DNA of 35,940 nt from Sphingomonas sp. (lineage in GTDB: Bacteria > Pseudomonadota > Alphaproteobacteria > Sphingomonadales > Sphingomonadaceae), in NCBI GenBank assembly GCA_013361785.1, contig JABFXK010000086.1, forward strand, positions 1 to 35,940, written 5' to 3'. Positions 5,542 through 31,742 of this stretch are shown in pieces. The first letter of the stretch is position 1; every line of letters begins with the position of its first letter. The notes beneath the pieces are model-generated. The model searched no databases, was not told where the DNA came from, and was given only the letters and a program-made list of their open reading frames with translations. The translations under genes and the position numbers were made by a program.

Positions 5542-5617
5542 GGGCCCATAGCTCAGTCGGTAGAGCAACTGACTTTTAATCAGTAGGTCGCTGGTTCGAA
5601 TCCAGCTGGGCTCACCA
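5542..5617 (+). tRNA. tRNA-Lys (anticodon TTT)
   Basis: A complete 76-base cloverleaf with encoded CCA. The acceptor arm GGGCCCA pairs with TGGGCTC (one G-T pair). The D arm is GCTC-AGTCGGTA-GAGC. The anticodon stem ACTGA/TCAGT encloses loop CTTTTAA with anticodon TTT, and the T arm contains GGTTCGAATCC. The CCA ends only three bases before the stop codon of the convergent polysaccharide gene. Confidence 0.98.
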
Positions 5618-27101: not shown

Positions 27102-28250
<1,149 letters not shown>

Positions 28251-28332: not shown

Positions 28333-29064
28333 TTAGGCTGCGGCGGGCGGCAAACCTACAAGATGTTGAGTCTCGATGATCTCGATGGACTCAACCGCTG
28401 GTGTGTGTGGCGCGGAAGACTCGCTTGTGCCGATTTCTTCGAACACCAGCTCGGGCTGCTTGTCGCCATCGATTGCGGCGCGGACTTTCGGAAAGCTTCG
28501 GCGGTGGAGCGGCGTCGGGCCGAGCGCGTGAAGCGCACGCCAATGCTCGGGCGTTCCGTAGCCTCTATTCGTCTCCCACCCGTAGCCGGGATATTCGCGG
28601 GCAAGATCGGCCATGATCCGGTCGCGGGTGACCTTGGCAATGATCGAAGCGGCGGCGATCGAGCGGCATTTGGCGTCCCCATCGACGATTGCCTTGGAGG
28701 GCCGCTGCCACTTCGGGCAGGCATTGCCGTCGACCAGCACCCAGGCGGGCTCAAGGCCCAGCGCCTCGACCGCGCGAGCCATCGCCAGCATGCGGGCCCA
28801 ATAGATGTTGAGCTGGTCGATTTCCTCGACGCTCGCGATTCCGACCGCCCAAGCGGAGCATTTCACCAGCTTGGCGTAGAGCGCCTCGCGCTTTTCGATC
28901 GGCAGGTTCTTCGAATCGTCGATCCCGCGGGGAAATTTGCTGCGGTCGAGGATGCAGGCGCCCGCGACCACCGGCCCCGCTAGCGGAGCGCATCCCGCCT
29001 CGTCGACCCCGGCGAGCGGCTGCGGATAGTCGAGCTCGAGCTTGAAGGAACAGCGCCGCGGCAT
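28333..29064 (-). CDS. rnhB: ribonuclease HII
   Basis: It cuts RNA in RNA-DNA hybrids and removes misincorporated ribonucleotides. The first catalytic pair is in LAGVDEAGCAPLAGPV (Asp21, Glu22). The next acidic sites are in VLVDGNACPKW and AIVDGDAKCRSIAAASIIAKVTRD, and the GYGTPEHWRALHALGPTPLHRRSF end is typical. Length is 243 residues including a C-terminal extension of about 40 residues. ATG 29064 is my start; two GANTC sites lie 2-12 bp upstream of it (29066-29076), and there is no strong ribosome site. It is followed by ccrM, a conserved pairing in alphaproteobacteria. Confidence 0.95.
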   Translation of the reverse strand: MPRRCSFKLELDYPQPLAGVDEAGCAPLAGPVVAGACILDRSKFPRGIDDSKNLPIEKREALYAKLVKCSAWAVGIASVEEIDQLNIYWARMLAMARAVEALGLEPAWVLVDGNACPKWQRPSKAIVDGDAKCRSIAAASIIAKVTRDRIMADLAREYPGYGWETNRGYGTPEHWRALHALGPTPLHRRSFPKVRAAIDGDKQPELVFEEIGTSESSAPHTPAVESIEIIETQHLVGLPPAAA

Positions 29065-29134: not shown

Positions 29135-30316
29135 CTAGTTTTCCATCCGCCAAGGCGGAAAGCGGCGCGCTTCGCCGGCCTTGTAAAAGAAGATGATGTT
29201 GCCGTCGGGGTCGCGGAGCCGCGCCTCGCGCCACATCCAGGGCTGGTTTCGGGGTCCGTGTTCGAACGCGATACCGCTGCGCGCGAGCTGCTCCACACGC
29301 TCGTCGAGGTCGTCGCACTCGAGGTAGATCGCGGTCGTCGCCTGGATCTTCTCGTGCGGGTCGATCTGTACGGAGAGCGTCACTCCGCCCGCGGTCTCGA
29401 AGCGCGCGTAGCCCGTGTCGGGACTGTCGATGATCTGCTTGAGGCCGAGGCTGCGGTAGAACTCGGTCGAGCGACGGTAATTGGTGCCTGTGACAGTGAC
29501 CTGATTGAGCCTCGGGCCGGCGCCGACGTCCAGGCGCACGTTCGACTGGCCGATCGGGCCAGCGCCATTCCCCAGCCCCGGCCCGTCATGGAGCGCAACG
29601 CGCACGAACTCGCGCGCGCGGGCGACCGCGTCGGAAAGGCTCGAACCCTGGGCGAGGAACAAAGCAATCGCGCTCGCCAGCGTGCAGCCGGTGCCGTGCG
29701 TGCTGGTCGTCTCGATCCGCTGGCCCTGCCAGCTCGTCATATTGTCTTCCTCGATGAGCGCGTCGGCCAGCGCGTTCCCCTCATCGTGGCCGCCTTTGAT
29801 CAGCACCGCGCAGCCATGCTCGCCGACGAGGTGAAGCGCGGCGGCGACCGGGTCTTCTTCGGAGGTGAGGCGCTTGAGCTCGGGCAGGTTGGGCGTCGCG
29901 ACCGTCGCCACGTCCATGAGCCGGCCGAAGGCGGCAATGGTGGAATCGTCCGCGAGCGAGCCGCCGCTGGTCGACGCCATGACCGGGTCGAACACGATTG
30001 GGAGCCCCGGCTGCGCCGCTTTCATTTCCTGCAGACGGCTCGCAACCTGCTTTGCCGCGAAGGCGCTTCCGATCATCCCGATCTTGACCGCATCGACCCC
30101 GATGTCGGCGACGACCGTGTCGATCTGCGCGAGGATCATCTCGGCGGGAATCGGGTGGATTGCGTCGACGCCGAGCGTATTTTGCGCGGTAACGGCCGTG
30201 ACAGCCGTCATCGGATGGCCGCCGAGCAAAGCAACGGTCTTGATGTCGGCCTGAATGCCTGCACCGCCTCCGGAATCGGAGCCGGCGATGATGAGGATGC
30301 GAGCCGTCGGCGTCAC
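29135..30316 (-). CDS. thiD: hydroxymethylpyrimidine/phosphomethylpyrimidine kinase fused to a VOC (glyoxalase-like) domain
   Basis: The first 260 residues are ThiD, which phosphorylates HMP and HMP-phosphate for thiamin synthesis. They carry ILIIAGSDSGGGAGIQADIKT, VKIGMIGS, FDPVMASTSGG, TPNLPELKRL, VLIKGGHDEG and the catalytic HGTGCTLASAIA (Cys211). A linker near 245-270 leads into a vicinal-oxygen-chelate domain: STEFYRSLGLKQIID, GGVTLSVQIDP, IYLECDDLDERVEQL, and LRDPDGNIIFFYKAGE. The first metal-ligand position, usually His, is Gln272, so metal catalysis is doubtful. I use GTG 30316, with GAAGG eight bases upstream; ATG 30358 would add 14 residues without a ribosome site. The stop is TAG. 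Confidence 0.92.
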   Translation of the reverse strand: MTPTARILIIAGSDSGGGAGIQADIKTVALLGGHPMTAVTAVTAQNTLGVDAIHPIPAEMILAQIDTVVADIGVDAVKIGMIGSAFAAKQVASRLQEMKAAQPGLPIVFDPVMASTSGGSLADDSTIAAFGRLMDVATVATPNLPELKRLTSEEDPVAAALHLVGEHGCAVLIKGGHDEGNALADALIEEDNMTSWQGQRIETTSTHGTGCTLASAIALFLAQGSSLSDAVARAREFVRVALHDGPGLGNGAGPIGQSNVRLDVGAGPRLNQVTVTGTNYRRSTEFYRSLGLKQIIDSPDTGYARFETAGGVTLSVQIDPHEKIQATTAIYLECDDLDERVEQLARSGIAFEHGPRNQPWMWREARLRDPDGNIIFFYKAGEARRFPPWRMEN

Positions 30317-30401: not shown

Positions 30402-31742
30402 TCACGCGGCCGACCGCACCGCCTCGCAGATATCGTCGACGACACGCTCAACGAGCTTCGCATCGTCGCCTTCGGCCATCACCCGGATCAGCGGCTCGGT
30501 GCCCGATTTGCGGATGACGAGACGCCCGCGGCCTTCGAGCTCCGCCTCGGCCGCGGCAATCCGCTTCCTGACGCTGTCGGTCTCGAGCGGCTCGGCGCCG
30601 CCGTTGAAGTGCACGTTCTTCAAAAGCTGCGGAAGCGGCTCGAACTGGCGCAGCAACGCGCTCGCGGGCGCTTTCGCCTCGACAAGCGCCGCCAGCACCT
30701 GAAGGCCGGCGACGAGGCCGTCGCCCGTGGTCGCATGGTCGGCAAGAATGATGTGCCCCGACTGCTCGCCTCCGACGTTGCAGCCGCGCGCGCGCATTTC
30801 CTCTAGCACGTAGCGGTCTCCGACCTTCGTCCGGAGCAGCTTCAGGCCCGCTTCGCCGAGCTTCCGCTCAAGGCCGAGGTTGGACATCACAGTCGCGACC
30901 ACCGCATCACCTTTGAGCGCGCCGCGGGCGTGCAGCCCAAGCCCGATCAGCGCCATCAACTGGTCACCGTCGACCAGCTGGCCCTTCTCGTCCGCTACGA
31001 TCAGCCGGTCAGCATCGCCGTCGAGCGCAAGACCAATGTCGGCACCGCTCGCGACCACCGTTTCCTGCATCAGCTCGGGATGGGTGGAACCGCAGCCGGC
31101 GTTGATGTTGAGGCCGTCGGGATTGACCCCCACGGCAACGACCTCGGCGCCGAGCTCCCACAGTGCCTCGGGCGCGACATGGTAGGCGGCGCCGTTCGCG
31201 CAATCGACTACGACCTTCAGGCCGTCGAGCCGGAGATGCTCGGGGAAGGTGTCCTTGGCGAACTGGATGTAGCGGCCGCGGGCATCGTCGATCCGGCGTG
31301 CGCGGCCGATCATGTCCGATTTTGCGAGCTTCGGGCCTGCTTCCAGCCGTTTCTCGATCGCCTGCTCGTCCTCGTCGCTAAGCTTGTAGCCGTCGGGCCC
31401 GAACAGCTTGATCCCGTTATCGGCGAACGGATTGTGCGAAGCGCTGATCATCACGCCGAGGTCCGCACGCATCGAGCGGGTGAGCATCGCCACCGCCGGG
31501 GTCGGCATCGGACCCAGCAGCACCACGTCCATGCCGACACTGGTGAAGCCCGCGACCATCGCCGATTCCATCATATAGCCGGAAAGCCGCGTATCCTTGC
31601 CGATCACGACGCGGTGGCGGTGGTCGCCGCGGAGGAAGTGCGCGCCCGCCGCCATGCCGACGCAGAGCGCCGTCTGTGCGGTCATCGGATGGACGTTGGT
31701 CGTTCCGCGAATCCCGTCGGTGCCGAAGAACTTGCGTGTCAT
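30402..31742 (-). CDS. glmM: phosphoglucosamine mutase
   Basis: It interconverts glucosamine-6-phosphate and glucosamine-1-phosphate, which feeds UDP-GlcNAc for peptidoglycan and LPS. It opens [16 protein letters not shown] and has the phosphoserine loop [15 protein letters not shown] (active Ser102). The magnesium-binding DGDADR, the sugar-binding GGEQSGHI, and the phosphate-binding [15 protein letters not shown] near the end are all present. Length is 446 residues, normal. It sits upstream of thiD with an 85-bp gap. Confidence 0.98.

Follow-up and report, generated by a model that had tools for sequence, protein, structure and literature searches.

A ThiD kinase fused to a C-terminal VOC domain is conserved in Sphingomonadaceae

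In vitamin pathways, gene fusions often expose functional links (PMC4921024). The thiamin-pathway kinase ThiD (TIGR00097) is known from E. coli and Salmonella (1jxh, 1jxi) as a protein without a C-terminal VOC domain. In ThiD-ThiE proteins and in yeast THI20 (3rm5, ThiD-TenA type), ThiD carries a C-terminal domain which is itself a thiamin enzyme. ThiD is also the entry point of bacimethrin, and ThiD2 has been presented as a means of telling this compound apart (PMC12345177). Among VOC proteins, the mitomycin-binding MRD (1kll, 2a4w) and the bleomycin-binding proteins (1ewj, 1ecs) have the VOC fold without the conserved metal-ligand set. The protein described here contains the whole ThiD kinase domain with its motifs, passes the equivalog-domain cut-off and, like ThiD-ThiE and THI20, continues into a C-terminal domain; that partner, however, is a VOC domain without a known thiamin role. 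Its VOC half likewise lacks the conserved metal-ligand set, although it is only about 20-26% identical to MRD and the bleomycin-binding proteins and, unlike them, is fused to a vitamin kinase.

The gene lies within the window, i.e. the whole stretch of 35,940 nucleotides of Sphingomonas sp. DNA that was analysed (Table 1). Translation gave a single open frame without internal stops. The GTG start is inferred from homologues, which align from residue 4-5. The source genome is fragmented (2.34 Mb, 88% complete), and the fusion is the sole ThiD found there, just as the fusion protein is usually the sole ThiD of its genome in general. An Rfam scan of the window for an RNA regulator near the gene matched only a tRNA gene (5542-5614, plus strand).

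Table 1 Features of the thiD-VOC locus (positions in the window)
Feature	Position	Strand	Remarks
thiD-VOC fusion gene	29135..30316	-	393 aa; GTG start 30316, stop 29135-29137
ThiD (HMP/HMP-P kinase) domain	29546..30298	-	residues 7-257; TIGR00097, E. coli ThiD alignment, Foldseek
Interdomain linker	29513..29545	-	residues about 258-268; inside conserved GxxxVRxD stretch, fused copies only
VOC domain	29192..29512	-	residues 269-375; PF00903, AF2, conservation
C-terminal tail AGExRRFPPWR, conserved	29138..29179	-	residues 380-393; common to stand-alone VOC family
glmM	30402..31742	-	upstream, same strand; conserved beside fused and unfused thiD
rnhB (RNase HII)	28333..29050	-	downstream neighbour; start approximate
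CcrM-like DNA methyltransferase	27102..28235	-	downstream neighbour, conserved

The initial annotation proposed a full HMP(-P) kinase followed in frame by a VOC domain, and both domains were confirmed above their cut-offs. The kinase half matched TIGR00097 (HMP-P_kinase) with 242 bits (cut-off 204.95) and Phos_pyr_kin PF08543 over residues 14-255 (E 4.7e-77), and ThiD structures were its best Foldseek matches. The motifs AQNT, KIGM, DPVM, KGGH and GTGC are intact in the alignment to E. coli ThiD, and the GTGC loop and the Gln of AQNT are invariant in the ThiD-VOC alignment. The monofunctional type ThiD2 is not indicated, PF17792 being absent from the Pfam matches. Judged by these sequence features, the kinase half is predicted to be a complete housekeeping ThiD, i.e. 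a bifunctional HMP/HMP-P kinase.

ThiD-VOC is a real, conserved domain fusion, confined in the samples searched to Sphingomonadaceae, a family with members in soil and water. A missed stop at the join near residue 265 (about 29520-29524) had been considered in the initial annotation, and inspection of the join found none. A frame error or missed stop was ruled out, as independent genome assemblies provided more than 50 homologues with both domains in one frame and the same linker. This stop-free linker, G[QH]xxV[R]xD...LNQ, is common to all intact fused copies, whereas the unfused ThiDs terminate shortly past the GPMGH motif. Relatives carrying ThiD and VOC as adjacent separate genes, which would have spoken against a fusion, were not found; in the unfused relatives, VOC is either absent or located elsewhere in the genome. 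The sequences deposited for Sphingomonas rhizophila, a Sphingomicrobium MAG and S. sediminicola contain broken thiD-VOC copies, with a frame break inside VOC (L058) or several frame breaks (L061 and L064). These would fit sporadic decay or errors in assembly. Contig ends truncate three other fused copies (L050, L053 and L066).

Searching with the full protein, we found the intact fusion in 37 of the 201 Sphingomonadaceae genomes (36 with full-length alignments and G159, in which the locus L136 was read as a fusion), and the VOC half is missing from most family members. A pattern scan of GTDB genomes provided more than 30 further fused loci, some of them from the same genomes as the 37. All of those with an organism name belong to Sphingomonadales (Sphingomonas, Sphingomicrobium, Sphingosinicella, Sphingorhabdus and MAGs). 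Among the matches listed for 385 genomes of the class searched with a whole-fusion profile, no ThiD-VOC was seen outside Sphingomonadaceae. The VOC profile detected relatives in 20 non-family genomes among 349 genomes of the phylum, and no frame among these had the size of a fusion with ThiD. The literature searched, the supplementary part of a survey of thiamin fusions (PMC4921024) excepted, yielded no paper on a ThiD-VOC fusion. ThiD has long carried the extra domain in this family.

The gene order glmM-thiD-(rnhB)-ccrM is kept in fused and unfused genomes, and the fused and unfused thiD thus represent the same orthologous gene. Both forms interleave on the ThiD tree as well as on the tree of the independent neighbour gene product GlmM. 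The fused label needs 11 changes on the ThiD tree (on which L053 and L061 are labelled 'single' only owing to a contig end and frame breaks, respectively), at least 7 of them forced by well-supported branches, and 9 changes on the GlmM tree, at least 6 of them forced. Placing all fused VOC domains in one clade was not rejected (p-AU 0.277). Since the junction is common to the fused copies and a single VOC clade is not rejected, the distribution is read most simply as a single, early fusion followed by repeated loss; most likely, the fusion happened only once, in an early ancestor of the Sphingomonadaceae, and VOC was then lost several times. Alternatively, repeated fusion or transfer at the thiD locus may have produced the same distribution. 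The probable loss of the VOC half in several lineages suggests that, though useful, it can be dispensed with and that ThiD catalysis does not require it.

The absence of VOC from most family members and its probable repeated loss would also suit a mere passenger, i.e. a domain which accidental read-through joined to ThiD and which is tolerated although it has no function, or an assembly artefact. We regard this as very improbable. The fusion is intact in more than 50 independent assemblies, and its core and C-terminal motif are invariant. Moreover, the VOC half is under purifying selection similar to that on the ThiD half: in the closest pairs, on which this reading is based as the distant ones are near saturation and were left aside, dN/dS was 0.08-0.27 for VOC and 0.07-0.25 for ThiD (e.g. 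0.085 vs 0.074 and 0.081 vs 0.146 in individual pairs). Conservation and dN/dS have thus already largely refuted the passenger explanation.

The VOC half matched Glyoxalase PF00903 (E 5.6e-10, 40.1 bits vs a cut-off of 20.6). Its AF2 model (pLDDT 92.3, pTM 0.85; 86.7 and 0.75, respectively, for the full-length fusion) consists of two beta-alpha-beta-beta-beta modules. With these paired modules, also supported by Foldseek, and the Pfam match above the cut-off, the domain belongs to the VOC superfamily. Mitomycin-binding MRD (1kll/2a4w) came first in the Foldseek search, and bleomycin-binding 1ewj and TnmS1 (5umq) also scored high; bleomycin- and mitomycin-binding VOC proteins hold ranks 1-3, 5, 6 and 8, and metallo-VOC enzymes appear from rank 13 (E. 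coli glyoxalase I), although a match of the VOC fold does not by itself assign a function. The matches of the profile search included 4hc5, TnmS-type entries and 1kmz. The NCBIfam bleomycin-binding models remained far under their cut-offs (BLMA NF033156, 13.8 vs 140 bits).

It was proposed initially that Gln272 replaces the usual first His ligand of the metal and that the VOC half may consequently bind rather than transform its ligand. The replacement was borne out, since this position is Gln in 56 of the 58 fused copies and His in the other two. Human glyoxalase I has Gln as its first metal ligand. As Gln and His, moreover, interchange at this position in the fused copies, Gln272 alone is weak evidence against metal catalysis. 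The other metal positions were compared in an alignment to E. coli GloA which has a probability of 28% and an uncertain register: GloA His74 corresponds approximately to Ala329 and Glu122 to Phe376, both in variable columns, and the region of Glu56 contains the invariant Ser315 (weak alignment). Of the four conserved ligands of the glyoxalase I type, Gln/His272 is the only residue which could act as a ligand according to this low-probability alignment. Across the fused copies, Trp362, Arg363 and the PPWR tail show little or no variation. These observations favour a putative metal-free binding pocket. Binding rather than transformation is plausible, as the metal positions are not kept and drug-binding VOC proteins rank high, even if the argument from Gln272 is weak.

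Many members of the VOC superfamily are enzymes, and FosA, FosB and GloA are among the structure matches. The VOC half could accordingly be an enzyme (of the isomerase, transferase or dioxygenase type) whose active site has escaped recognition and which became joined to ThiD by chance or so as to be co-expressed with it. Gln272/His272 could then provide one metal ligand and His/Gln317 another, and the stand-alone relatives are weakly similar to catechol dioxygenase models. However, the positions equivalent to His74 and Glu122 of GloA are variable non-ligands, and none of the curated enzyme models reached its cut-off. We consider this explanation unlikely.

Relatives of the VOC half are also encoded separately from thiD. 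Sixteen unfused family genomes (G193 weakly) and one fused genome, G199, have such a copy away from thiD; that of G199 (L176:4716-5105) is distant and clusters, on long branches, with a sequence from outside the family. A stand-alone VOC family of Proteobacteria with the PPWR tail shares the core residues and the C-terminal motif, its clear members reaching E values of 1e-26 to 1e-56. These proteins differ from the fused domain in being encoded by separate genes elsewhere in the genome, sometimes beside soxR, and the samples searched contained no fusion of theirs with ThiD outside Sphingomonadaceae. The stand-alone orthologues retain Asn271, Gln/His272, Tyr303, Arg305, Ser315, Trp362 and the PPWR tail, so the pocket is not ThiD-specific.

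The neighbourhood of the stand-alone copies bears on a role in thiamin metabolism. No homologues of E. coli ThiC, D, E, F, G, H, M and S were present near 34 stand-alone VOC loci (roughly 10 kb around each) in a search with these eight proteins that detected its ThiD controls. Four genomes from two related genera have the stand-alone VOC gene divergent to soxR and paired with a second VOC gene. The SoxR assignment is based on TIGR01950, which gave 181.3 and 179.6 bits for the two proteins scanned (cut-off 116.9); the genes are located at L163:5317-5769, L164:4336-4779, L165:5292-5747 and L167:4366-4806. SoxR is a sensor of redox-active compounds. This context points away from thiamin, although it comes from one clade of stand-alone copies and may not hold for the fused form. 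The genomes themselves were also compared: ThiC is present in 73 of 74 genomes and ThiE in all 74 (73 above the cut-off), in fused and unfused ones alike, and TenA is nearly absent (0/37 fused, 3/37 unfused). No link of the fusion to the presence of ThiC, ThiE or TenA was seen.

These data do not support the thiamin precursor or inhibitor initially proposed as the VOC ligand, given the lack of thi homologues near the stand-alone loci, the same ThiC/ThiE pathway in both groups of genomes and the SoxR context. In a thiamin-related role, the VOC half would bind or channel the pyrimidine intermediate, or sequester a toxic HMP analogue, e.g. bacimethrin, which a broad-specificity ThiD would otherwise convert to methoxythiamin. 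The VOC domain is kept in frame with the only ThiD of the genome in many lineages, this ThiD is not the ThiD2 said to discriminate against bacimethrin, and the compound enters the pathway through ThiD. Nevertheless, the VOC half was apparently lost repeatedly while ThiD was retained, and the core residues are the same in the stand-alone VOC proteins; together with the genomic data above, this makes a thiamin role possible but on the unlikely side. An antivitamin ligand such as bacimethrin may still be an attractive alternative, with the fusion itself as its sole genomic support. That VOC serves ThiD as an integral antidote or sensor is rather improbable; it would then catch a toxic pyrimidine or an aromatic antimetabolite at the very enzyme that the compound would hit or be activated by.

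We tentatively favour, as a serious candidate if short of probable, a ThiD with a VOC domain at its C-terminus that works without a metal and sequesters a ligand, as in the mitomycin- and bleomycin-binding proteins. The predicted target is probably a toxic aromatic or redox-active compound. The ThiD half would do its usual job as HMP/HMP-P kinase, and the VOC half would pair with a second one within the ThiD dimer to form a cleft. In this cleft, the conserved strand with Trp360, Trp362 and Arg363 may hold a small molecule, planar or aromatic in shape and probably toxic or redox-active, so that VOC would bind and hold the compound in the manner of MRD and the bleomycin-binding proteins. Attachment to an essential kinase which is made constantly would give the VOC domain steady expression.

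If the VOC ligand is an antivitamin, the fusion would be a case of resistance borne by the target enzyme itself. If it is not, ThiD-VOC would be a warning that a conserved fusion can last even when its halves share no pathway. In both cases, ThiD-VOC offers a soluble and tractable test protein for a widespread VOC family. This family also takes part in another type of fusion, observed in the genome G007 (L170:4757-5725), in which VOC forms the C-terminal part of a frame of 318-323 aa, and the N-terminal part is membrane-protein-like and had no Pfam match.
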